27,792 nucleotides of DNA from a virus, in IMG/VR virus record IMGVR_UViG_3300001533_002010, positions 1 to 27,792 of that record, one strand, 5' to 3'. Below the pieces are notes generated by a model. The model made no database searches, was not told where the DNA came from, and was given only the letters and a program-made list of their open reading frames with translations. Numbering within the stretch: the first letter of the stretch is position 1; every line of letters begins with the position of its first letter. The position numbers and the translations under genes are program-made. Shown one piece after another: positions 1,646 to 26,934 of this stretch.

Positions 1646-2617
1646 ATGGTCGATATCGCCGCCAAACAGCGGCACGTGCTGCTGTTGAAAAAAGTGCGGA
1701 ACAATCAGCCGTTGACCGCCGCGGAGATGCGCGAACTTAAAGGATACGAAGACTTGGGCAGAACAAAGCTAACCGCCAAAAAGAAGGTTAAGAAAACATC
1801 AGCGGCACGGACGCCGGGGAAGGGCGATGCGCGGGCGGTGTTTTTGGGCAAGCTCGACGAGTTGATCGCCCAGGCGGTGATGCCGGAGGCCAGGGCGTCG
1901 CTGGAAGGGCTCAAGGACTTTGTCGCCGGCTCGACGACGACGGCGATGCCGCAGCGGGCGGTGGCGGAGTTGTTGGGGGAAAAACCGGCGCGGATGGATT
2001 ATTGGGTCAATCGGCTCGGCGCGCCGCGGAATTACGACAAGACCATCCACCTCAAACAGTTTCTGGCGTGGTGGCGCGAGTGGCTCATCGAGCAGTATCG
2101 GTTCGACCCGTTCCGCGTGAAATTGGTCGATCTGGGGCCGTTCCTGGGCGTCTCGCGGCAGACGATTAACGAATGGCTCAAGGACGGCCTGCCGCGGAAT
2201 GCCGACAAGACGTTCAGCCTGCCGGCGGTGTTTGACTGGCGCGTCAAACAACTCGGCGGCAAACCGGCCGATAAGACCGCGGCGGCCAACCCCCTGCACG
2301 AAATCAAGGCCGAAAAGTACCGGATGGAAATTGAGGCCGCACGCGGGCGGCTGGTGGATCGGGCGGCGGTGGAGATGGGGCTGGCGGCGCGGGCGGGCGT
2401 GCTGGTGAACCTGATCGACCGCAAGGGCAGCGAGCTGCCGCAGCTGTTGGCGAATCTGACGGCCGAGAACATCAAGCCGGTGCTCGATGAGTTCTTCGGC
2501 GCGCTGCGGCAGGCGGCGGCGACGGTGCCGGAGGATATCGCCGCGGTGCTGCCGCCGGGGCGGCGGGAAAAGCTGGCGGCGTTTTTGGAAGAGTTGGCAT
2601 TGACGATGGAGGAGTGA
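1646..2617 (+). CDS. Putative terminase small subunit with two winged-HTH-like modules
   Basis: This 323-residue protein lies just upstream of the large terminase, the usual place for the DNA-recognition subunit. Two similar HTH-type modules follow one another. Residues about 103-147 read QRAVAELLGEK...YWVNRLGAP...FLAWWREW. Residues about 160-205 read LVDLGPFLGVSRQTINEWLKDGLP...VFDWRVKQ. The helical C-terminal part (residues 215-323) begins with KAEKYRMEIEAARGRLVDR, a pattern typical of Nu1/small-terminase proteins. The ATG at 1646 is chosen. A TTG at 1631 in the same frame is possible, but neither has a clear ribosome binding site. At about twice the length of lambda Nu1, it fits other long phage TerS-like proteins. 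The stop codon forms the first bases of a GACGATG repeat array. Confidence 0.65.
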   Translation: MVDIAAKQRHVLLLKKVRNNQPLTAAEMRELKGYEDLGRTKLTAKKKVKKTSAARTPGKGDARAVFLGKLDELIAQAVMPEARASLEGLKDFVAGSTTTAMPQRAVAELLGEKPARMDYWVNRLGAPRNYDKTIHLKQFLAWWREWLIEQYRFDPFRVKLVDLGPFLGVSRQTINEWLKDGLPRNADKTFSLPAVFDWRVKQLGGKPADKTAAANPLHEIKAEKYRMEIEAARGRLVDRAAVEMGLAARAGVLVNLIDRKGSELPQLLANLTAENIKPVLDEFFGALRQAAATVPEDIAAVLPPGRREKLAAFLEELALTMEE

Positions 2618-2650
2618 CGATGGACGATGGACGATGGACGATGGACGAAG
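2616..2650 (+). repeat. Heptad tandem repeat (GACGATG)5 at the TerS stop
   Basis: Four perfect GACGATG units and one GACGAAG unit run from 2616. The TGA of the upstream gene (2615-2617) overlaps the first unit. The array is followed by the purine-rich degenerate text GTGAAGAATTGAG that recurs between other genes of this window. It belongs to the heptad family described at 11261, 20098, 20435, 22812 and 26810. Confidence 0.9.
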
Positions 2651-3114: not shown

Positions 3115-3321
3115 GTGCGATGGTTTAAGACAATTATTAATCTTTTAGTCGAAAATGCGGGTTATACAGCAGGAGATTCTTCTCCTTGTAAGAGGTGGTA
3201 TGAACGCCATATGCCACTGATTGAAAAATATAGTCACTTTACTGACCCTGACAACATTCAAGAACTCCACTATTTGCGCCGCGAATTTGAACAACTTTAT
3301 TATGAGCGGTATAAGAAATGA
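3115..3321 (+). CDS. Small hypothetical protein, GTG start
   Basis: A 68-residue frame if started at the GTG at 3115, directly after GAAAGGACA. The frame can be extended upstream to 3058, but that part is made of intergenic repeat text (GGAAATTTGAAATAG) that recurs near 12870, so I prefer 3115. The nearby ATG at 3120 is in another frame and closes after two codons. The protein is AT-rich in codon use and ends in a charged helical stretch, ELHYLRREFEQLYYERYKK. Its stop overlaps the first possible start of TerL (ATGA), suggesting coupling. Function unknown. Confidence 0.45.
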   Translation: MRWFKTIINLLVENAGYTAGDSSPCKRWYERHMPLIEKYSHFTDPDNIQELHYLRREFEQLYYERYKK

Positions 3322-5312
3322 AAAATCGTCCCTCGTCCATCGTCGATTGTCCATTGCCGTCGCCGTTGCCGATGACGGACGGGGAGCGGGCGCAGTTGAC
3401 GCCGGCGCCGCGGGTAGCGGTCGATGAATGGATGGAGACGCGGTATCGGCTGCCGAAGGCGACCAGCGATGTCACGGGGCTGTATTCGTTTGACTACACG
3501 CCGTTTTTTCGCGAGCCGATGCAGCGGCTCAGTGAGCCGCCGGTCAAGGTGGGCATCGAGGCGTGCACCCAGGGCGGCAAGAGTACGCTGATGGTCGGGG
3601 TGTTCGGCTACCTGATCGAGTGCGATCCGGGGCCGACGCTGTTTGTGATGCCGCGCGAAACGGACGTCAAGCGCCGCGTCAACACCCGGATCCGTCCGGT
3701 GTTTGAGGCCAACGCCGACTTGATGCGGCACGTGAAGGCCCAGGACATCCGCAACATCAACATCGGCAAAGAGACGGTGTTCGACAACATGATCGCGTTT
3801 CTGGCCTGGAGCACGTCGCCGGCGGCGCTGGCGGACAACCCGATCTGCAATCTGCTGATCGATGAGCCGGGCAAGTTTGAGCAACTGGCCACCGGCGAGG
3901 ACACGTTTGAATCGCTGGAAGAACGATCGCGGACGTTCGCGATGCGGGCGCGGATGTTTTACGCGACCAGCCCGCAGGACGAGGGGGACATGACCGATAA
4001 GCAGTTTCGCAGCGGCACCGACGAGCGGTGGGCCGTGCCGTGCCTGCTGTGCGGGGCGTGGCATGAGATCGCCGCTACACGCCAGACGCTGCATCTGGAG
4101 GTGGACAACGACGGTAAGCTGTTTGACGCCGACGCCTACAAAGAGGGTGCCGCCGCGGCGTGGTACCAGTGCCCGCACTGCCAACGGCGATGGACCGAGC
4201 GGCAGCGGGGCCAATCGGTCGCCGCCGGCAAGTGGGTGGCCAAGACGCAGACCTTGCAGCCGGACGGCAAGCTCGTCGGGCCGCGGCCGCAGACCCGGCA
4301 TTTTACCTATCGCGAGAACGCGATGATGCTGCATCCGCGTTTTTGGCAGGCGTCGATGGAGGCGGCCAAGCTGGCCGCGGCGCTGGCCGAACGCGACGCC
4401 GGGAGCCTGGGCAAATACCGTAACTATGTCCGCAACCAAAAGGCGATGCCGTGGGTCGTGGTGGCCCAGACGATCAAGGATGAGACGCTGGCGTCGCGGG
4501 TGATCGACCTGCCGCGGCGGTGCGTGCCGGCCGAGGCCAAGATGCTGGTGGCCAGCGGCGACGTGCACGTCAACTTCGAGGGCGCCCTGCGGATCGACTA
4601 TGAGGTGCGGGCGTTTGGCGATGACCTGATCAACTGGGTGGTGCTGGCCGGGTCGGCGACCGATTGGGACACGTTCTGGCAGACGCTGATGCTGCCGTTC
4701 CCGTGGGCCGCCGACAGCGCCGCCGAGGAGCTGGACGTGGCGACGGTGTTTGTCGATGCGGGCGACCAGGCCGATACCGTCTATCAGCAGTGCGGGCGGT
4801 ACCCCGGCTGGGCGTGGCCGATCAAGGGCGTCGAGAGTCAGCGGACGCCGTTGTATTTGTCCAACCTGGAAAAAGTGCATGAGCAGCGTCACCGGCGCGG
4901 CAAGCGGCGGATGGCGGCGGCCCGCCTCACCGGCCAGCAACTGGTCCTGATCGACCAGAGTTTTTTTTCGGAGATGATCGTCAACTGGACCGACCCCGAC
5001 AAACAGACTGCCGGGGCGACGTACTATTACAGCCAGATTGTTGAGGATACGGCCGGGGCGTACTTCCGCGAGTTTGGCGGGATGCACCGCGTGCAGGTGG
5101 CACGGGGCAGCCATCGCGTCTGGACGTGGCGGCCGCGCGGCAAGGCGACGCCGGTGCACTTTCACGATACCGCCCGGTACGCGGCGGCGGCGGCGTGGTT
5201 TAACAAGGCCCACCTGATGCGGTCGGTCAGCGGCGACGACCTGCCGCCGGCACTGGCCCGGCGACGGCTGCCGCAGCGGGCGCGGCGCGTGGGCCGCATT
5301 GAGCGGGATTAA
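3318..5312 (+). CDS. Terminase large subunit, GpA family
   Basis: The ATPase/nuclease motor that packages and cuts phage DNA. ATPase signs, numbered from the ATG at 3318: Walker A TQGGKST (residues 84-90), Walker B NLLIDEP (about 178-184), and a coupling motif FYATSP (214-219). A treble-clef-like pair CLLC (242-245) and CPHC (285-288) sits where GpA proteins carry a zinc site. The nuclease region begins at VASGDVH (Asp 415), with a second acid in VFVDAGDQ (Asp 480). Length 664 fits the family. The start is uncertain: residues 3-12 are encoded by a reverse-orientation heptad repeat (3326-3353). An in-frame ATG at 3372 gives a 646-residue protein without it. Neither start has a good ribosome binding site; the first overlaps the upstream stop. 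The stop codon lies at the edge of a decamer repeat. Confidence 0.93.
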   Translation: MKNRPSSIVDCPLPSPLPMTDGERAQLTPAPRVAVDEWMETRYRLPKATSDVTGLYSFDYTPFFREPMQRLSEPPVKVGIEACTQGGKSTLMVGVFGYLIECDPGPTLFVMPRETDVKRRVNTRIRPVFEANADLMRHVKAQDIRNINIGKETVFDNMIAFLAWSTSPAALADNPICNLLIDEPGKFEQLATGEDTFESLEERSRTFAMRARMFYATSPQDEGDMTDKQFRSGTDERWAVPCLLCGAWHEIAATRQTLHLEVDNDGKLFDADAYKEGAAAAWYQCPHCQRRWTERQRGQSVAAGKWVAKTQTLQPDGKLVGPRPQTRHFTYRENAMMLHPRFWQASMEAAKLAAALAERDAGSLGKYRNYVRNQKAMPWVVVAQTIKDETLASRVIDLPRRCVPAEAKMLVASGDVHVNFEGALRIDYEVRAFGDDLINWVVLAGSATDWDTFWQTLMLPFPWAADSAAEELDVATVFVDAGDQADTVYQQCGRYPGWAWPIKGVESQRTPLYLSNLEKVHEQRHRRGKRRMAAARLTGQQLVLIDQSFFSEMIVNWTDPDKQTAGATYYYSQIVEDTAGAYFREFGGMHRVQVARGSHRVWTWRPRGKATPVHFHDTARYAAAAAWFNKAHLMRSVSGDDLPPALARRRLPQRARRVGRIERD

Positions 5313-5360
5313 ACAGCATTAAACAGGATTAAACAGCATTAAACAGGATTAAACAGGATA
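5311..5360 (+). repeat. Decamer tandem repeat, five units of AAACAGSATT
   Basis: Five 10-bp units alternate AAACAGCATT and AAACAGGATT, the last ending GATA. The TAA stop of TerL (5310-5312) is formed by the same text (GATTAAACAG). Unit length differs from the heptads and octads elsewhere, but the placement against a stop codon is the same. Confidence 0.9.
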
Positions 5361-5393
5361 AAAAAAAACACTTTAACACGAAAGGATTGACTG

Positions 5394-5693
5394 ATGCAGG
5401 ACACACCTCACCCCACAGCGGCGGTTACGGCACCGGCGCCGAAAAAAAAGAAACCGGCCACACAGAAAAAAACCACCGGCCGGGCCGGTGCGGCGGCGGC
5501 GTTGGCCGAGCGGTTTGTGCCGGGCATGACGCGCTGCCGCGTGCCCGGCTGCGGCGCACGGCTGATGGTCCGCAGCACCAGCAAACGGATGCTCGACGAC
5601 GGGCGGCTGCTCATCGAGCGGTCGGTCAAGTGCCAGGGGATCCACCGGCACACCTACACGCTGCCCGAGTTTGTCGATGTGACAAAAAAATGA
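5394..5693 (+). CDS. Small zinc-finger-like protein (Ogr/Delta-like pattern)
   Basis: This 99-residue protein has a Lys/Ala/Pro-rich first third and a compact second half, TRCRVPGCGARLMVRSTSKR...SVKCQGIHRHTYTL. A Cys pair is followed about 25-30 residues later by Cys and two His. That layout, with the Arg/Ser stretch between, recalls the zinc-binding Ogr/Delta late activators of P2-like phages. The second metal half is C/H rather than CxxC, so the match is only in pattern. The ATG at 5394 follows GAAAGGA at good spacing. It sits directly before a palindrome and a promoter-like site, which suits a regulator; that is inference. Confidence 0.5.
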   Translation: MQDTPHPTAAVTAPAPKKKKPATQKKTTGRAGAAAALAERFVPGMTRCRVPGCGARLMVRSTSKRMLDDGRLLIERSVKCQGIHRHTYTLPEFVDVTKK

Positions 5694-5698
5694 CTTAC

Positions 5699-5714
5699 TT
5701 TACAGATCTGTAAA
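5699..5714 (+). promoter_or_regulatory. Perfect 16-bp palindrome, operator candidate
   Basis: TTTACAGATCTGTAAA is a perfect inverted repeat. It begins six bases after the stop of the small zinc protein and ends eight bases before a promoter-like -35. The position is right for a dimeric activator or a repressor. No other copy was noticed in the window. Confidence 0.5.
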
Positions 5715-5722
5715 ACAGCCCC

Positions 5723-5752
5723 TTGCGGACCGCGGCCGATCCGGCCGATAAT
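5723..5752 (+). promoter_or_regulatory. Sigma-70-like promoter for the head genes (candidate)
   Basis: TTGCGG (5723-5728) and GATAAT (5747-5752) are separated by 18 bases. The -10 matches five of six consensus positions, the -35 three of six. The weak -35 plus the palindrome just upstream would fit an activated promoter. The other good promoter in the window (27015) also has a TTGCG -35. Confidence 0.45.
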
Positions 5753-5837
5753 GCTCTAAAGTGAATCGTTGATAGACAATTGAATACGGGTGTTTGCGGC
5801 GGCGGCTGATCCCTGCGGCGGCAAACGAAAGCAAATC

Positions 5838-5880
5838 AAGACGGCAATTGGGTGCCCAATCACTCGCTGCCGTCTTTTTT
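5838..5880 (+). terminator. Strong intrinsic terminator / attenuator hairpin
   Basis: AAGACGGCA (5838-5846) pairs with TGCCGTCTT (5868-5876), followed by a run of T. The loop contains a second small hairpin, ATTGGG/CCCAAT (5847-5860). It lies about 85 bases after the promoter-like -10 and ends 18 bases before the next start codon. It could end transcription from the terminase genes, or attenuate the head operon if that starts at 5752. Confidence 0.75.
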
Positions 5881-5898
5881 TGCGCCCACGGAGCACGC

Positions 5899-6105
5899 AT
5901 GGCCACAGCGGCACAAGATATTATTGACGCCATCGACGCGGCGATCCTGGCGGGATTGACCGGGCCGGGGCAGATCCGCAGCGCCGACGGGCGGATGATC
6001 ACGTATCGGTCGCTGACCGAGCTGAAGGACCTGCGGCAATTTTACGCCCGCCAGCTTGCCCGCAGCAGCGGCGGCACCGTACGGCTGGGGGACTTCAATG
6101 TTTGA
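5899..6105 (+). CDS. Head-to-tail joining protein, gpW-like
   Basis: This 68-residue protein sits between TerL and the portal, exactly where lambda W lies. Its pattern AILAGLTGPGQIRSADGRMITYRSLTELKDLRQFYARQLA matches the gpW fold: two helices around a small hairpin with the DGR-x-x-x-Y-x-S signature. In lambda, gpW plugs the filled head and prepares it for gpFII. The ATG at 5899 is preferred; an earlier in-frame TTG at 5794 would read through the terminator hairpin. The end overlaps the portal start by eight bases. Confidence 0.8.
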   Translation: MATAAQDIIDAIDAAILAGLTGPGQIRSADGRMITYRSLTELKDLRQFYARQLARSSGGTVRLGDFNV

Positions 6106-7588
6106 TCGCCTGTTTAAACGTGCGGCGTCCCCGTCACGCTCGGCACGCGGCAGCCGGGGGTTTGATGTAGTGACCCCCGACCGCACGCGGCGGGCGATGG
6201 CCTTTATGACCGGGCTGGCCGCGGCCGCCGACGCCCATCTGGACGGGCTGACGCTGGGGCGGCTGCGCGAGATGTGCCGGATGCACGACCGCCGCAGTGC
6301 GCTGTTTAGCGGGATGCTGGATCGGGCGGTCGATAATGTCTTTGGGGCGGACTTCGATTTTATCCCGCGCACCGACGACCGGGAATTGAACCGGCGGATC
6401 AAGACCTATATCACCGAGCAGATGCAGCCGGATCGGTTCGACGCGGCGGGCATGATGGGGATGGTCGAGGCCTGCCATCTGGCGCTGCGGGCGATCTGGA
6501 ACGATGGCGAGACGCTTTGGGTCAAACGGCCCGGCGGCGTGGTGATGGCCTTCGAGGCCGACCAGATCAACACCCCCAAACACGACAAAACCAACATCAC
6601 CCTGGGCGTGGAAAAAACCGCCGACGGCCGCCCGGTGGCGCTGCACTTAGACCAGCGCAAAAACGCCAACGACAGCGGCACCGTCTCGGCGTCGCCGGAG
6701 CGCAGCGTCCGCGTCACGATCCCTAACGCCATCTGGCCGGTGTTTCGCAAGCGGTACGGCCAGACGCGCGGGCTGCCGGTGATCGCGGCGGCCTTGAGCA
6801 GTTACGGGCGTCTGAATAATTATCTGGACTACGAATCGCTGGCCGCCGAAGGCAACGCGATGCTGGGCATCAAGATCACCCGCGAACCGGGCGATGAGGC
6901 ACTGCCCGGCGTGGTGGACAACGCCGACAGCGGCACGGCCTCGACGTTTGACAAGGTACAAAAGTTCGAACCGTTCAGCGTCTGGGACCTGCTGCCCGGC
7001 GAGGATGTCGGGCTGGTCAATTCCAGCCGCCCCGGCGATGCGTTTAGCCCGTACACCACCATGATGTGCCGGATCGTGGGCGTGGCGGTCGGGTTTCCGA
7101 TCGAACTGATGCTGATGGATTTTTCGGCGGGCAATTTTTCCAGCCAGCGCATGGCGCTGGAAGAGGCCCGCCGCAGTTTTCGGCGGTGGCAGCAGTTTTG
7201 TCATCGCAAGCTCTGTATGCCCTGGTATCGCTGGCAGATCGCCCGTGCGGTCGCCGGCGGCATCCTGCCGGCGCGAGATGACATTTTCAAGGCCAATGTG
7301 CAGTGGCCCGGCTGGCCGTACATCGAGCCGTACAAGGAGGCCAACGCCAACAAGATCGCCGTCGAAGGCCTGCAAAAATCGGTCAGCGAGTGCATCCGCG
7401 CCCGCGGCCTGGAGCCGTTGGAAGTGTTCGAGGAAATTGTCGCCGAACGCCAGTGGTTTGCCGATCACGGTCTGACGCTGACGGTGACCGAGACCCCGGC
7501 GCACGAGCCCAGCGGCGCCGCGGCGCCGGATGCCCCGCCGGAACCGACGCCCGTCCAAACCAACCCCGAAAACAGCGATGGAGGCTGA
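6098..7588 (+). CDS. Portal protein, lambda family
   Basis: This 496-residue protein fits the lambda gpB portal family in length and pattern. The DRAVDNVFGADFDFIPRTDD and LRAIWNDGETLWVKR segments are typical of its N-terminal half. LPVIAAALSSYGRLNNYLDYE and the GLVNSSRPGDAFSPYTTMM block are typical of its centre. The C-terminus is a disordered Pro/Ala tail. Twelve copies form the ring through which DNA enters. The ATG at 6098 overlaps the W stop, indicating coupling. Confidence 0.93.
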   Translation: MFDRLFKRAASPSRSARGSRGFDVVTPDRTRRAMAFMTGLAAAADAHLDGLTLGRLREMCRMHDRRSALFSGMLDRAVDNVFGADFDFIPRTDDRELNRRIKTYITEQMQPDRFDAAGMMGMVEACHLALRAIWNDGETLWVKRPGGVVMAFEADQINTPKHDKTNITLGVEKTADGRPVALHLDQRKNANDSGTVSASPERSVRVTIPNAIWPVFRKRYGQTRGLPVIAAALSSYGRLNNYLDYESLAAEGNAMLGIKITREPGDEALPGVVDNADSGTASTFDKVQKFEPFSVWDLLPGEDVGLVNSSRPGDAFSPYTTMMCRIVGVAVGFPIELMLMDFSAGNFSSQRMALEEARRSFRRWQQFCHRKLCMPWYRWQIARAVAGGILPARDDIFKANVQWPGWPYIEPYKEANANKIAVEGLQKSVSECIRARGLEPLEVFEEIVAERQWFADHGLTLTVTETPAHEPSGAAAPDAPPEPTPVQTNPENSDGG

Positions 7589-9082: not shown

Positions 9083-10126
9083 ATGAGTCTCGCACACAGA
9101 AACGAAGGGCCGATTACCTTAATCAGCGGCGAAGCGCTGGCTGAGGCGCGGCTGGTCAAACTCTCGACCGGCAAGGCCGTCTATGCCGCCGCCGGGGATG
9201 AACCGATCGGGATCACCGATGCGGCGGTGGCAAACAACGAGCGGGTGACGCTCTACCCCCTCAAGGGCCACATCGAGCGGGTCACCGCGTCCAAGGCCAT
9301 CAGCGCCGGGTCGGCGATCTTTGTCGCCGACGACGGCAAGGTCTCCGACGCGGCGGTCGGCAAACAGATCGGCATCAATTTCCAGGCCGCCACCGCCGAC
9401 GGCGGCAAGGTGGCCGCCCAGGTCTGGGGGCCGCGCGGCGGCAATGACATGCTCAGCGCCAAAGGATCGCTCTGCGAATTTTTTGATGACTTCCTGGACT
9501 TTAACACCGTCGCCACCACCGGCAAGTGGAATGTCACCGTCGCCGACGCCGGAGCCGGCGGCACCACCGGGATGACCGATGCGGCCAACGGAGTCGTGCA
9601 GGTCTATTGCGACGGCGACGACAACGACGAGGCGTATGTCTCGAGCGTGGCCGAATGCTGGAAGTTCCAAACCGCCAAGCGCCTGTACTTTGAAACGAAA
9701 GTCAAGCTGACCGAGGCCAACACCGACGACGCTAACTTCATCATTGGCCTCAGTGACACCGTTGCTGCCAATTCGCTGCAGAACGACGGCGACGGCCCGA
9801 TGGCCAGCTATGACGGCGCGGTGTTCTTCAAGGTGGACGGCACAATGAAGATCCAGTTTGAGACCTCCAACGCCGCCGCTCAGGTGACCAACGCGACACT
9901 GGCCGATTTTGCCAGCGCGACCGAGTACACGCTGGGCTTCTTCTACGACTTCAACGACGGCGTGACCGCCAAGGTGACCCCGTTCGTCAACGGCGTGGCC
10001 GGCACCACGCACGACCTGACCATCGCCGGGCTCGAAGAGATGCATATCCTCTTCGGCGTCAAGGCCGGCGGGGCCAACGAAGAGGCGCTGTTGGTGGATT
10101 ACATCCACATCGCGACCGAGCGGTAA
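9083..10126 (+). CDS. Capsid decoration protein fused to a lectin-like domain
   Basis: Residues 1-117 have the pattern of DUF2190-like capsid decoration proteins: small beta domain, GEPIGI-type turns, the block KAISAGSAIFVADDGKV, ending KVAAQVWGPRG. It lies between protease/scaffold and the major capsid gene, as lambda D does. Residues about 130-347 form an added domain beginning CEFFDDFLDFN...GKWNV and ending LLVDYIHIATER. That outline is typical of concanavalin/LamG-like jelly-roll domains found on virion proteins. Length 347 is three times a plain decoration protein. Start chosen at the ATG at 9083 behind ACGAAAGGC. The added domain could be displayed on the capsid surface to bind glycans; that is inference. 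Confidence 0.65.
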   Translation: MSLAHRNEGPITLISGEALAEARLVKLSTGKAVYAAAGDEPIGITDAAVANNERVTLYPLKGHIERVTASKAISAGSAIFVADDGKVSDAAVGKQIGINFQAATADGGKVAAQVWGPRGGNDMLSAKGSLCEFFDDFLDFNTVATTGKWNVTVADAGAGGTTGMTDAANGVVQVYCDGDDNDEAYVSSVAECWKFQTAKRLYFETKVKLTEANTDDANFIIGLSDTVAANSLQNDGDGPMASYDGAVFFKVDGTMKIQFETSNAAAQVTNATLADFASATEYTLGFFYDFNDGVTAKVTPFVNGVAGTTHDLTIAGLEEMHILFGVKAGGANEEALLVDYIHIATER

Positions 10127-10147
10127 GTGGCCAAGAAACTGATTTTG

Positions 10148-10177
10148 AGGCCGCCGGCGGCAGAGCCGGCGGCCTTT
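10148..10177 (+). terminator. GC-rich hairpin between decoration and capsid genes
   Basis: AGGCCGCCGGC (10148-10158) and GCCGGCGGCCT (10165-10175) form an 11-bp stem with a six-base loop, followed by only a short T run. It may be a weak terminator or an mRNA-stabilising end that lets the capsid gene be expressed at another level. Confidence 0.55.
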
Positions 10178-10218
10178 AACCCAAACGCACAATGCACACA
10201 AATTGAAAGGTAAATACA

Positions 10219-11184
10219 ATGGACCGCGAAAGCACCTCTGTTATCGTTCGCCCCGACCTGAACGCTCAGGTCAGCGAGTACATGGCCGCCAAGGCGGCCG
10301 GGCGGTTTTTGGCCCCGCGGGTGGCGCCTTTGTTTCGCAGCGCAACGGCCACCGGCCAGTATCCCATCTTCCGCCGCGCGGCGTTTAAGAAGATGGCCGA
10401 CCTCAAACGCAACCCCAACGGCAGCTACAACGCCATCAAAGGCTTCTTCGGCCAGGGCACGTTTGCCTGCGAGGACAACGGCCTGGAGTACCCCCTCGAC
10501 GACGCGCTCCGCCGCAAGTATGCGACTCTGTTTGACGCCGAGGCCGCCGGCAGCCAGATTCTGGCCCAACAGATCCTGCTCGGCTGGGAGTACCGCGTCG
10601 CCCAACTGTTCAGCGGCGGCGGGTTTACCAACACCAACGTGGCGACCGCCTGGACGACCACCGACACGGCGGTGCCTCTGGACGACCTCCAGACGGGCAT
10701 CGACACGCTCTGCGACAAATGGGGCGCACTGCCGGGCGATCTGTCGCTGATCATCCCGCGCGCCGACTTTGTCCAGCTCAACCGCACCGCCCAGGTCATC
10801 GACAAGGCCCAGTACACCTATCCGGGTGTTCAGCCGGCGAACCTGTCGGCGGCGGCCATTGCCGGGATGCTGGGCCTCAAAGAGGTGCTCGTCGCCCAAA
10901 GTGTCTATGACAGCACAGAAGAAGGCGTTGCCGAGTCCAACGCGATGTGCTGGACGGCCGGGGTGATGTACCTGACCGTCTGCGCCGACGAGGATGACCC
11001 CCTCGAAATGCCGTCGGCGGCACGCACCATCCTGTGGGCCGAGGACAGCTCCGAGCTGCCGACGATGGAAAGCTACCGCAGCGACGACCGCCGCAGCGAC
11101 ATCGTCCGGGCCCGCGCCAATACCGACGAAATCCTGCTGCTCGACGACACCAACCCGATGGTGTATCAGTTGACCAACACGTAA
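10219..11184 (+). CDS. Major capsid protein (HK97-fold type)
   Basis: This 321-residue protein sits in the position of lambda E. The N-terminal arm MDRESTSVIVRPDLNAQVSEY is followed by RVAPLF and YPIFRRAAFKK. LIIPRADFVQLNRTAQVIDK and LAGMLG-type turns mark the core, and the C-terminal half ends ARANTDEILLLDDTNPMVYQL. This arrangement is typical of phage major capsid proteins of roughly 300-350 residues, where several hundred copies build the icosahedral shell. The ATG at 10219 follows GAAAGG at a suitable distance. Hairpins lie on both sides, at 10148 and 11207. Confidence 0.8.
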   Translation: MDRESTSVIVRPDLNAQVSEYMAAKAAGRFLAPRVAPLFRSATATGQYPIFRRAAFKKMADLKRNPNGSYNAIKGFFGQGTFACEDNGLEYPLDDALRRKYATLFDAEAAGSQILAQQILLGWEYRVAQLFSGGGFTNTNVATAWTTTDTAVPLDDLQTGIDTLCDKWGALPGDLSLIIPRADFVQLNRTAQVIDKAQYTYPGVQPANLSAAAIAGMLGLKEVLVAQSVYDSTEEGVAESNAMCWTAGVMYLTVCADEDDPLEMPSAARTILWAEDSSELPTMESYRSDDRRSDIVRARANTDEILLLDDTNPMVYQLTNT

Positions 11185-11240: not shown

Positions 11241-11260
11241 TGCCGGGACGCGATAGAATG

Positions 11261-11318
11261 GACGATGGACGATGGACGACGTGAAGAATTAAGAAAATCG
11301 TCAATCGTCAATCGTCAA
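11261..11318 (+). repeat. Heptad repeats in both related forms
   Basis: Two GACGATG units and one GACGACG (11261-11281) are followed by GTGAAGAATTAAG and then three TCGTCAA units (11298-11318). TCGTCAA differs by one base from TCGTCCA, the reverse-complement form of the first array, so both orientations of one heptad family are present in one gap. Confidence 0.85.
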
Positions 11319-11337
11319 TCGATAAGGAAACCTGCCG

Positions 11338-11637: not shown

Positions 11638-11712
11638 GAATTAAGAACTCAAGAACCCAAGAACGCAAGAACCCAAGAACTCAAGAACTCAAGAATGAAG
11701 AATTGAGAATGA
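11635..11712 (+). repeat. Octad repeat array AAGAACNC
   Basis: The TGA of the upstream gene opens a purine-rich array of units such as AAGAACTC, AAGAACCC and AAGAACGC, about seven in a row. It is closed by AAGAATGAAGAATTGAGAAT. It fills the gap to the next start. Similar arrays lie at 12711, 17155, 18969, 20090, 22812 and 23743. Confidence 0.9.
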
Positions 11713-12713: not shown

Positions 12714-12926
12714 CATCGACGATGGACGAATTTAATGAAGAACACAAGAACTCAAGAACTCAAGAACTCAAGAACCCAAGAATGAAGAATTGAGAATGAA
12801 GAAATTTAAGCCACGAATAAACACAAACAAAAAAAAATAATCGGTGAAAATCCGTGGTTATAAAAAATTTGAAATAGGAAATTTGAAACAGGAAACTGAA
12901 AACATAACACTGGCCGGGCGGGTTAA
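12711..12926 (+). repeat. Composite intergenic repeat region
   Basis: The stop codon is followed by a heptad pair (GACGATGGACGAA), an octad array (AAGAACAC, AAGAACTC, AAGAACCC), then GAAGAATTGAGAATGAAG. After that come AT-rich text with AATCCGTGGTTA (compare 27630) and GGAAATTTGAAACAGGAAACTGAAA. No gene is seen in these 213 bases. The part 12718-12797 is a longer copy of 22812-22875. Confidence 0.85.
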
Positions 12927-17157: not shown

Positions 17158-17209
17158 CGATGGAAGAATTAAGAACCCAAGAACTCAAGAACTTAAGAAT
17201 TAAGAATTG
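17155..17209 (+). repeat. Short heptad/octad repeat gap
   Basis: The TGA stop opens TGACGATGGAAGAATTAAG, followed by AAGAACCC, AAGAACTC and AAGAACTT octads and AAGAATTAAGAATTG. The next start codon follows directly at 17210. Confidence 0.85.
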
Positions 17210-18537: not shown

Positions 18538-18971
18538 GCCAACCGATCATAGAACAGATTGCCGTCGCGATTGCTGACCTGGTGGACGGCATTACCGGGC
18601 TGACGGCCCTGCGGCCCAAGCGGGTGTTCTTTCTCGACGACGTCACCGGCGACGGGACGGTCGTGGTCACGCAGGATCAGCCGGAAAAGGGCGAATCGAC
18701 CCTGTACACGCAGGACTGGCTGCAGCCGTTTAGCCTGACGGCCCTGCTGACCGACAGCGACACGGCCACCGACAGTATCGATACGCGGCTCAACGCCATC
18801 CGCAGCGACCTGGAAAAGGCACTGCTGGCCGACCCGACGCTGGGCGGGCTGGCCATCGACACGGTGGTCGAGCCGCCGACGTACTTTAACGCCGAGGACC
18901 TGACGGGGGTCGAGGTGAAGATCACGGTGCACTACCGCACGCAATACGATGACCCGTATGCGCAGGCGTAA
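18534..18971 (+). CDS. Tail terminator protein, gpU-like
   Basis: This 145-residue protein sits between Z-like and tail tube genes. Its outline, two N-terminal helices (EQIAVAIADLVDGIT), a central YTQDWLQPFSLTALLTDSDTATDSIDTRLNAI segment and a final strand EVKITVHYRTQYDDPY, matches tail terminators of the gpU type. Lambda U is 131 residues. These form a hexameric ring that stops tail growth at the length set by the tape measure. The stop TAA is the first unit of a long octad array. Confidence 0.75.
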   Translation: MSQPIIEQIAVAIADLVDGITGLTALRPKRVFFLDDVTGDGTVVVTQDQPEKGESTLYTQDWLQPFSLTALLTDSDTATDSIDTRLNAIRSDLEKALLADPTLGGLAIDTVVEPPTYFNAEDLTGVEVKITVHYRTQYDDPYAQA

Positions 18972-19140
18972 GAACTTAAGAACTTAAGAACGCAAGAACG
19001 CAAGAACCCAAGAACGCAAGAACCCAAGAACGCAAGAACCCAAGAACCCAAGAACCCAAGAACCCAAGAACGCAAGAATGCAAGAACGCAAGAACGCAAG
19101 AATGAAGAAAATAATCAATAATCAATAAACAATAATCAAT
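18969..19140 (+). repeat. Longest octad array, followed by TAATCAA heptads
   Basis: From the TAA stop, about sixteen octads (AAGAACTT, AAGAACGC, AAGAACCC, AAGAATGC) run to about 19104. Then come four heptads, TAATCAA, TAATCAA, TAAACAA, TAATCAA (19112-19139). No gene is seen. Both repeat families therefore share one gap. Confidence 0.9.
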
Positions 19141-20092: not shown

Positions 20093-20242
20093 GAATCGAC
20101 GATTGACGACCGACGAAGGACGACGTGAAGAATGAAGAACCCAAGAACCCAAGAACCCAAGAACGCAAGAATGCAAGAACCCAAGAACCCAAGAACTTAA
20201 GAACTTAAGAAATTAAGAACGCAAGAATTGAGGAAATAGAAA
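20090..20242 (+). repeat. Degenerate heptads plus octad array
   Basis: After the TGA come four degenerate heptads GACGATT, GACGACC, GACGAAG, GACGACG (20098-20125), then TGAAGAATG and about twelve octads (AAGAACCC, AAGAACGC, AAGAATGC, AAGAACTT). The array ends at the GAGGAAATAG ribosome binding site of the next gene. Confidence 0.88.
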
Positions 20243-20437
20243 ATGGAATTAACGACTGCACAAAAGGCGACGCTGATCCGCGACCATCATGGCGGGTTTG
20301 CCGACGCCACCGACGCCCAGTGCCTGGCCGTCTGGGACGCTCTGCCGGACGCGACACGGCAGGGGTACGCCGGAAAAATCAAAGATCAAAAAGAAAAAAT
20401 CAAAGATGCGGAGGCCGCCGCCGGCGGCACAAAATAA
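20243..20437 (+). CDS. Small helical protein between tail tube and chaperone genes
   Basis: This 64-residue protein starts behind GAGGAAATAGAAA. The front (TTAQKATLIRDHHGGFADATDAQCLAVWDALPDA) is helical and the end (KIKDQKEKIKDAEAAAGGTK) charged. No recognised family. The layout of a small gene between tube and G genes occurs in various siphophages. The TAA stop is the first three bases of a TAATCAA heptad array. Confidence 0.6.
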   Translation: MELTTAQKATLIRDHHGGFADATDAQCLAVWDALPDATRQGYAGKIKDQKEKIKDAEAAAGGTK

Positions 20438-20469
20438 TCAATAATCAATAATCAATAATCAATCGTCAA
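20435..20469 (+). repeat. Heptad array (TAATCAA)4 TCGTCAA
   Basis: Four perfect TAATCAA units starting exactly at the stop codon, then one TCGTCAA unit. The array joins the two heptad forms in register, which is direct evidence that they are one family. GGAG of the next ribosome binding site follows immediately. Confidence 0.93.
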
Positions 20470-22811: not shown

Positions 22812-22875
22812 GACGATGGACGAATTTAATGAAGAACACAAGAACTCAAGAACCCAAGAATGAAGAATTGAGAAT
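22812..22875 (+). repeat. Second copy of the 12718 composite repeat
   Basis: From GACGATGGACGAATTTAATG through the octads to GAATTGAGAAT this copy equals 12718-12797, except that it lacks two AAGAACTC octads (16 bases). It lies after the tape measure gene. The heptad, the unique joiner and the octads are all shared, so the block was duplicated or moved as a unit. Confidence 0.9.
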
Positions 22876-23745: not shown

Positions 23746-23865
23746 GAATTAAGAACACAAGAACCCATGAACCCAAGAACGCAAGAACCCAAGAACACAA
23801 GAACTCAAGAACTCAAGAACACAAGAACACAAGAATTAAGAATTTAAAATTAAGAATTTAGAATT
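23743..23865 (+). repeat. Octad array before the chitin-binding-like gene
   Basis: Starting at the TAA stop: AAGAATT, then units AAGAACAC, AAGAACCC, AAGAACGC, AAGAACTC, one of them changed to ATGAACCC. The array then decays into AATTAAGAATTTAAAATTAAG before the next ATG. No gene is present. Confidence 0.9.
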
Positions 23866-24984
23866 ATGTCAAAGACCTACGGACTGACCGAGCAGGACCG
23901 CCAGCGGCTCCAGCGGGCGCTGCGCTTTGTCGAAGACAACGCCCACCTCCTCCGCAGCTTCCGCCGCGTCCGCGGGATGCCGGCGGGGGGGGGCGGCGGC
24001 GGTACGTCGCTGCGCACGGCGTATTGTGCGGAGGATGCGCCGGACGGGACGGTGATAAGCTGCTGGCTGGATTACAACGGCCAGCCGGCAAAAGAATGGA
24101 ATCAAGATTATACCTTCCACTTGGGGCAATATGCCGAACACGACGGGGATGTGTACGAATCGCTGAAGGAGCTGAACCAAGACTATGAGCCGGGCGAGGC
24201 CGGGAGTGAGACGTGGTGGGAGGTTGTCGATGCGGGTACAACTGCCGAGGCATACGCGGCGGGGGTGACCTATGCGGCGGGCGGGCTGTGTACCAGTGGA
24301 GGAACGGCATACCGCAGCCTTAAAGATGATAATATTGCAAACACGCCTGCGTCATCCCCGGAATGGTGGACGGAGATTACAAAGGTCGATGTGGTCTGCC
24401 GGGTTGCCAATGGCCATCGGTTGGACTTTGCCTACCCGGTTTTGACGGCGGGCCAGCCCATTAACATCCAGCAAAAGGCCGGGCAATGGGACGCTGTGGC
24501 ATTGTTTGCAGGGGCGGAGGAATCGTGTGCCGAGGGCGGCCTTCTGGAGCTTATTAGCCATAGATTGACCGCCGAGCTATCAACCAGCAGCACCGATATG
24601 ATGGTGGCCGACCCTGGTTACGGACAGGGATTGCAATTTGACGCGAAAGCAAGTAGCGATTATATTATCCAGATTGACCTTATCTATTCGGCGGATGCGT
24701 CTATTAAGATTGACTTGAGCAATGCCGCCGCAGCAACTATTTCCGGTATATTCACAGGACACGATGGGGGCAGCTTCGCGGGCAAGGTTGTCACTGAATT
24801 TGAGTCCGCCGTTACATTTGCTGGAGGCGGGTATATCAAGGGAGAGCTTTTAATTAAGGCGACGGCCGCCGGCAAGATAAGTTTACGCTTTGGGGCGTCC
24901 GCCAACGGGCAAGAGTGTAAACTCCTGCCCGGCAGCAATCTACAGTACCGGAGGACGCACTATGTGTGGGTTGAGCCGGAATAA
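23866..24984 (+). CDS. Fibre-like protein with two CBM5/12-like modules
   Basis: This 372-residue protein starts with a helical, basic region (residues 1-37), then a Gly linker (41-46) encoded across a run of nine G. Two modules of the chitin-binding CBM5/12 pattern follow: residues about 78-121 (W...Y.LGQYAEHDGDVYESL...WWEV) and 129-171 (YAAGVTYAAGG...GTAYRSL...WWTEI). Residues about 230-372 form a beta-rich end (LSTSSTDMMVADPGYGQGLQFDAKASSDYIIQIDLIYS). A glycan-binding tail fibre is the likely role, with the modules as binding units; the C-terminal fold is not identified. Overlaps the next gene by 23 bases. Confidence 0.65.
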   Translation: MSKTYGLTEQDRQRLQRALRFVEDNAHLLRSFRRVRGMPAGGGGGGTSLRTAYCAEDAPDGTVISCWLDYNGQPAKEWNQDYTFHLGQYAEHDGDVYESLKELNQDYEPGEAGSETWWEVVDAGTTAEAYAAGVTYAAGGLCTSGGTAYRSLKDDNIANTPASSPEWWTEITKVDVVCRVANGHRLDFAYPVLTAGQPINIQQKAGQWDAVALFAGAEESCAEGGLLELISHRLTAELSTSSTDMMVADPGYGQGLQFDAKASSDYIIQIDLIYSADASIKIDLSNAAAATISGIFTGHDGGSFAGKVVTEFESAVTFAGGGYIKGELLIKATAAGKISLRFGASANGQECKLLPGSNLQYRRTHYVWVEPE

Positions 24985-26829: not shown

Positions 26830-26903
26830 AGTGACTGATCATTTCCCCTCGCACCGCCGTGGCCGCGGGATCGCCGGCACGACCCGCCCCCGGCATGTTT
26901 CAA

Positions 26904-26934
26904 TTGATTATTGATTATTGATTATTGATTATTG
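26904..26934 (+). repeat. Heptad array (TTGATTA)4, reverse of TAATCAA
   Basis: Four perfect TTGATTA units and TTG. This is the reverse complement of the arrays at 19112 and 20435, so here the element lies in the opposite orientation, in the gap that separates the late operon from the next transcription unit. The rest of 26830-26903 is GC-rich with no gene seen. Confidence 0.9.

Follow-up and report, generated by a model that had tools for sequence, protein, structure and literature searches.

We propose that positions 5,694 to 5,898 of the window (the whole stretch of 27,792 nucleotides analysed here, part of a 36,498-base IMG/VR virus record) act as the control region of a head operon and combine two separate conserved modules, a palindrome set at a fixed distance from a promoter-like site and a three-way-junction RNA ahead of the first head gene. 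We put forward this model as a whole tentatively, its chances falling somewhat short of even. Computation shows a conserved promoter geometry, a conserved RNA structure, complementarity between a loop of that RNA and its own stem, and association of the RNA with head and packaging genes.

In the window, TerS (1631–2617) and TerL (3318–5312) are followed by a gene for a zinc-ribbon protein of 99 amino acids (5394–5693, plus strand), which lies between TerL and W here and in relatives. Beyond it come a perfect 16-bp palindrome, TTTACAGATCTGTAAA (5699–5714), a likely operator or activator site whose position is kept in relatives; a −35-like TTGCGG on the plus strand (5723–5728), the TTG of which starts 16 nt past the palindrome centre; a −10-like GATAAT, also on the plus strand, 18 nt after TTGCGG (5747–5752); and a leader (5753–5837). 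W, the first gene of the head operon, encodes a gpW-like head–tail adaptor on the plus strand (5899–6105, ATG at 5899) behind a plus-strand GGAG (5890–5893) that is likely to be its Shine–Dalgarno sequence; the W product matches phrog_118 (E = 1.2e-6) and also phrog_2545 and phrog_5774. The portal gene (6098–7588), an S49 protease, a decorator-type protein (9083–10126, labelled from its gene place and not from a database match) and the major head protein (10219–11184) follow. The palindrome, the TTGCGG-18-GATAAT pair, the leader, the hairpin and the W start of the original prediction are all present, letter for letter, at these positions. Short tandem arrays with units of 7–10 bases (AAGAACNC, AATAATC, GGATTAAACA and others) sit in gene gaps of the window (2602–2648, 5306–5363, 11258–11321, 11643–11702, 12738–12789, 17164–17206, 18970–19140, 20128–20237, 20433–20463, 22832–22860, 23751–23866 and 26903–26934); 15 of 16 arrays tested were wholly or mostly non-coding, by a gene list that makes 87% of the window coding.

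The palindrome alone is weak evidence, since three perfect palindromes of at least 16 bp are present in the window where 0.7 are expected at its composition; a dyad with 8/8 pairs arises in 0.5% of shuffles of the gap before W. The promoter hexamers match at 8 of 12 positions only, and the pair was not among the sites listed by a promoter scan of the window. The portal and W proteins served as queries to find relatives; a TerL query found no viral contig and a portal alignment no genome contig, and blastn of 5690–5900 against cultured phages gave no match. Duplicates were dropped before counting (L003 = L007; L004 and L005 near L011; L006 = L015; L034 near L008; L026, L159, L163 and L165 of L025 or L158 type; L150 and L028 with L027; L245 = L174; L239 = L008). 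The relatives read with a complete TerL–W stretch carry a zinc gene there, and in most of them a dyad follows it. Its commonest core is CAGATCTG, with outer arms that vary (TTTACAGATCTGTAAA, TTCCAGATCTGGAA, CTCCAGATCTGGAG, GTCCAGATCTGGAC and ATACAGATCTGTAT).

Tested one by one, the single dyads are mostly not significant. Nine relatives (L002, L007, L008, L009, L010, L011, L012, L013 and L018) start W as if leaderless, and their dyad scores 50–54 nt ahead of W add up to 56, where 32.2 ± 2.7 is expected; 0 of 1,000 shuffles were as good, and none exceeded 44 at any position. The TTG starts exactly 16 nt past the dyad centre in 11 of 15 regions (the window, L002, L007, L008, L009, L010, L013, L018, L025, L027 and L035); at that point L011, L012 and L015 lack a TTG, and L019 departs from the pattern. 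The automatic dyad scan alone gave this offset in 8 of 15, with L007, L008 and L035 set by position afterwards. The distant L025 and L027 carry a palindrome of quite different sequence at the same offset, followed by TTGACA-16/17-GATAAT. Because the W ATG of the nine relatives, 50–54 nt past the palindrome centre, falls at the expected promoter +1, the palindrome centre is placed near −52; the window, L025 and L027 have a leader and a Shine–Dalgarno-like sequence, and transcription of the window would be expected to start at about 5759. This conserved geometry supports a regulated promoter with a site near −52, and a dyad at a fixed distance upstream, as in the 11 regions, is what characterizes an Ogr/Delta-type late promoter. 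What stands of the predicted activated promoter is the palindrome before a promoter-like site, beside a zinc gene and in a geometry that shuffling does not reproduce. We also observed GGGGG immediately ahead of the W ATG in L002, L009, L011 and L018, four of the leaderless relatives, and CCCCTTG after the palindrome in the window, L002, L025 and L027. In L019 (1876–2034) W is preceded by another strong hairpin, CCCCCCGC/GCGGGGGG, and the usual offset shows no clear palindrome. L035 (5014–6216), on a contig titled Candidatus Zixiibacteriota, outside Planctomycetota, carries W, a related zinc gene and a dyad whose TTG lies at the same offset.

We infer that the zinc protein encoded upstream of W is most likely the regulator that binds the palindrome, which may instead be bound by a host protein or another phage protein. 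The protein had been called Ogr/Delta-like. Its ligand pattern, C-x4-C-x26-C-x5-H (C3H), and the invariant C, C, C and H in the aligned proteins of 12 relatives bear out a zinc protein, but the Ogr/Delta identity was not supported: the spacing differs from the CX2CX22CX4C motif of Ogr, whose late promoter dyad is TGT-N12-ACA (PMC3931495, from the portion available), and a Pfam search of the window protein returned no match up to E = 10. Among 11 proteins tested, a SAP domain scored above the Pfam cut-off in L003, L006, L013 and L019 and SAP_new25 in L008; the proteins of L012 and L035 showed only sub-threshold traces, and those of the window, L002, L018 and L004 no SAP match. A model of the L010 protein (mean pLDDT 84.2, pTM 0.44) matched SAP domains in local Foldseek comparisons with a probability of 1.00 but an E value of 0.31–0.35. 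The prophage L174 encodes a NrdR-type zinc ribbon between TerL and W (29.5 bits, Pfam cut-off 27.2). The activator site of P2 Ogr and P4 Delta sits at −55, and these systems, like the window, join a small phage zinc protein to a dyad-symmetric site at late promoters. The window differs from them in its CAGATCTG palindrome core, in C3H ligands with other spacing, in the SAP domain of some relatives and in having no Pfam Ogr_Delta match above cut-off. It is plausible that the zinc protein works like Ogr.

The second module is an RNA of about 100 nt on the plus strand (5788–5887, delimited with two covariance models, R1 and R2, and a test of P1 partners). The leader has a folding energy of −55.7 kcal/mol against a shuffled mean of −45.1 (z = −2.6), and folding gives a three-way junction on the plus strand: P1 (5788–5791 with 5884–5887; CGGG/CCCG and variants), a P2 hairpin (5792–5826) with a 7-nt loop, CTGATCC (5806–5812), a linker, and a P3 hairpin (5831–5883). 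Immediately 5′ of the RNA on the same strand is the motif ACAATTGAATACGGG (5776–5790), which reads AAGTGAATAACGGG in several other copies. P3 has a terminator-like core (5838–5876; stem AAGACGGCA at 5838–5846 with TGCCGTCTT at 5868–5876) and a T-run (5875–5881), and encloses the plus-strand nested palindrome ATTGGG-TG-CCCAAT (5847–5860), in which the loop sequence CCCAAT is complementary to the 5′ stem strand. The stem, T-run and nested palindrome that had been read as a strong terminator are there, as one arm of a junction. P3 has the GC-rich hairpin and following U-run of an intrinsic terminator; a simple terminator scan of the plus strand did not list it because of the loop rule of that scan.

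Covariation supports the fold. With the alignment fitted to the structure, 14 of 27 pairs show double changes, in 50 cells, and 0 of 500 shuffles equalled the cells or the score; an earlier MAFFT alignment of five sequences gave only moderate covariation (72 of 500 shuffles attained its number of double-change pairs and 9 of 500 its score). P1 partners fit with 12.7 against 10.7 ± 0.36 for permuted partners (0 of 1,000 as good), and the copies in L025, L027, L158 and L160 are without P1. Complementarity between the P3 loop and the 5′ strand of the P3 stem, two bases apart, holds in 98.5% of 65 cells. At least five consecutive loop–strand pairs occur in all 23 copies with a 6-nt loop, out of 28 copies, where 2,000 loop shuffles gave 5.4 on average and 13 at most; among copies with other loop sizes, one of five has such complementarity. 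Two partners, the loop and the 3′ strand, are thus open to the 5′ strand. All 28 copies have a T-run of four or more T, and T columns are invariant in all ten rows of another MAFFT alignment. No conserved leader peptide was seen by eye; stems covary and lengths differ.

The core of the window hairpin is common to the hairpin before W in L025–L028, whose W is 34–36% identical to the query, and the same kind of contig has a second copy before the major head gene. R1 was built from five copies and R2 from 13; the window element, in both training sets, scored 62.2 bits with R1 and 58.7 bits with R2. R1 matched 24 of 392 Planctomycetota genomes at E = 0.1, two above 40 bits, and also found a copy in L156, a contig with gene content unlike these phages. 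R2 gave at least 40 bits at seven places in 6 of 397 genomes of the class of G299, two of the seven places (L173 and L174) having been in training; the 161 genomes of the order of G299 added G906 at 60.2 bits, and viral contigs preselected by an upstream-motif plus GGTGCC pattern added L244 (48.7 bits) and L251 (47.3 bits). As controls, 132 genomes of the Zixibacteria phylum (that of G002) reached 30.0 bits at best and 100 viral contigs, taken from loci matching a loose pattern, 20.5 bits, which makes 25–40 bits a grey zone. Seven of the 28 accepted copies score below 40 bits with R2 (L011 twice, L008, L230, L212, L234 and L235) and were kept for form and place. Model matches outside phage context or of wrong form (L175–L181, L210, L211, L213, L214, L233 and L236) and antisense matches (L222, L237 and L238) were not accepted, and the accepted set was formed without singly judging loci L182–L204 and L215–L220. 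Other searches gave chance matches: blastn of an L158 stretch against cultured phages hit 18 records at E = 0.5–6, and the five inspected all lay inside genes; of the loose-pattern matches listed, all were judged chance except the contig of L027, as were L157, L161, L162, L164, L166 and L167 from another search. The window record holds a single copy by an R2 scan that included 27000–36498 (L223).

Across several phage types, the accepted copies stand ahead of a W, decorator, major head, scaffold or terminase gene and, among those read, share the strand of that gene. In closer relatives a copy lies before the decorator gene (L007 and L012) or the major head gene (L007, L010, L011, L016 and weakly L008). 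PHROGs matches identify the downstream gene as major head protein for L232 (phrog_371), L234 and L160 (both phrog_1005), head maturation protease/major head for L224 (contig of L205), scaffold for L231 (contig of L212) and terminase large subunit for L229 (contig of L208); L227, L235 and L156 gave no PHROGs match and the L007 decorator only weak ones. Its neighbours thus associate the element with late head and packaging genes in several kinds of Planctomycetota-linked phage. At about 10140–10180, ahead of its major head gene, the window has a GC-rich hairpin then TTT at the place taken in relatives by the junction RNA. In L207 the junction RNA is followed directly (1615–1687) by a tRNA-Sec-like match below threshold (30 bits, cut-off 47); ARAGORN found no tRNA in L207 or L221.

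The two modules occur apart: nine relatives have the palindrome and no leader hairpin at W, so the modules need not work together, and the junction RNA is also found inside operons. Palindrome position and hairpin are each kept in relatives, as the original prediction had proposed to check, but as separate units. Its attenuator control of the head operon survives in that a terminator-like leader must be passed to reach W, but not as a joint device, and antitermination is possible.

We consider control by an activated promoter and an attenuator-type junction leader to be nearly an even proposition, in which zinc-protein binding, activity of the promoter, termination and regulation of read-through are all read from sequence. 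A regulator, most likely the zinc-ribbon protein, would bind the palindrome near −52 and activate a weak sigma-70-type promoter (−35 TTGCGG, −10 GATAAT), and the transcript would begin with the conserved junction RNA. P3 with its T-run would act as an attenuator, halting a share of polymerases near 5880 and letting the rest go on into W, portal and capsid. Once P3 has been read through, P1 (GGG/CCC) would close the junction just before the W ribosome site. In nascent P3 the 5′ strand may pair with the loop first and then swap to the 3′ strand, a swap that would time pausing or termination. Because the lower stem next to the T-run persists when the 5′ strand pairs with the loop, this form is no classical antiterminator, a point against the model. 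Conservation of the T-run favours termination, a position before capsid genes demands read-through, and P1 can form only once that has happened; an attenuator-type leader of late genes is therefore, we think, the most likely reading.

The main rival, which we rate as rather unlikely, is that late mRNAs start or are cut just upstream of the junction RNA, which would be a 5′ stability or processing element: the compact junction would block exonucleases and raise head-protein yield, and the T-run would only lengthen P3 by pairing with the A-rich strand. The dependence of P1 on read-through suits this proposal too, as do a Shine–Dalgarno-like sequence and ATG within 60 nt past the model match in 22 of 28 copies, and the copies inside operons, a costly place for a strong terminator; such copies before a capsid gene, if strong terminators, would lower capsid expression, which counts against the attenuator model. 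The T-run, kept in every copy while other stem pairs change freely as termination predicts, argues against a mere stability element.

It is also conceivable, though in our view unlikely, that the RNA belongs to an undescribed bistable class, portable among unrelated tailed Planctomycetota phages, which would act alone on RNA polymerase (put-like) or ribonucleases and set late head output, with the loop and the 3′ strand competing for the 5′ strand as a timer. HK022 put RNA, a phage leader of some 70 nt built of two stem-loops, has a bearing on termination (PMC9378689, from the portion available); the window RNA differs in having a terminator-like arm, in being closed by P1 and in preceding late genes, and a put-like effect on polymerase is a possibility only. 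Rfam 15 gave no match at the element for the window at the gathering threshold, for 5650–5950 and L160 at a permissive threshold, or for seven further loci. No description of such an RNA was found in the accessible portions of the open-licence literature. The Rhodopirellula-1 motif, a candidate structured RNA given for Planctomycetes and Proteobacteria (PMC2864571) and compared by table row only, may or may not be the same element.

A GC-rich stem and T-run would also be explained by ordinary intrinsic terminators closing upstream transcripts, the next gene having its own promoter, and the few weak Planctomycetota matches that resemble plain terminators with CGGCAG/CTGCCG stems (L214) agree with this. 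We nevertheless find it quite improbable, because most copies leave only tens of nucleotides from T-run to start codon, too little for a promoter, P1, P2 and the loop complementarity would be superfluous, and the promoter-like site of the window is upstream of the hairpin.

A further proposal concerns the palindrome, which could serve repression or Q/AlpA-like loading of an antiterminator in place of Ogr-like activation. Lambda pR′–tR′, with Q, has a promoter, a short leader and a terminator before late genes. That layout, shared by AlpA before lysis genes (PMC9371919, from the portion available), resembles the window and favours such loading. However, the AlpA site lies between −35 and −10 in the same source, whereas the TTG of the window −35 starts 16 nt beyond the palindrome centre, placing the site upstream of −35; the conserved three-way-junction leader, recurring inside operons, is a further difference from both systems. 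PF06530, one Q type, matched none of nine phage records, mostly fragments, and 2 of 14 controls. We judge this proposal very improbable. It is likewise unlikely that a single-subunit phage RNA polymerase promoter is to be read into AAGTGAATAACGGG; PF00940 matched 0/9 records, but also 0/14 controls.

We found nothing on late-gene control in Planctomycetota phages in the literature portions available. The promoter geometry and an RNA that models can recognize together provide a handle for finding late operons in these phages, and a terminator-like RNA directly before capsid genes, with a loop that competes with its own stem, offers a testable case.
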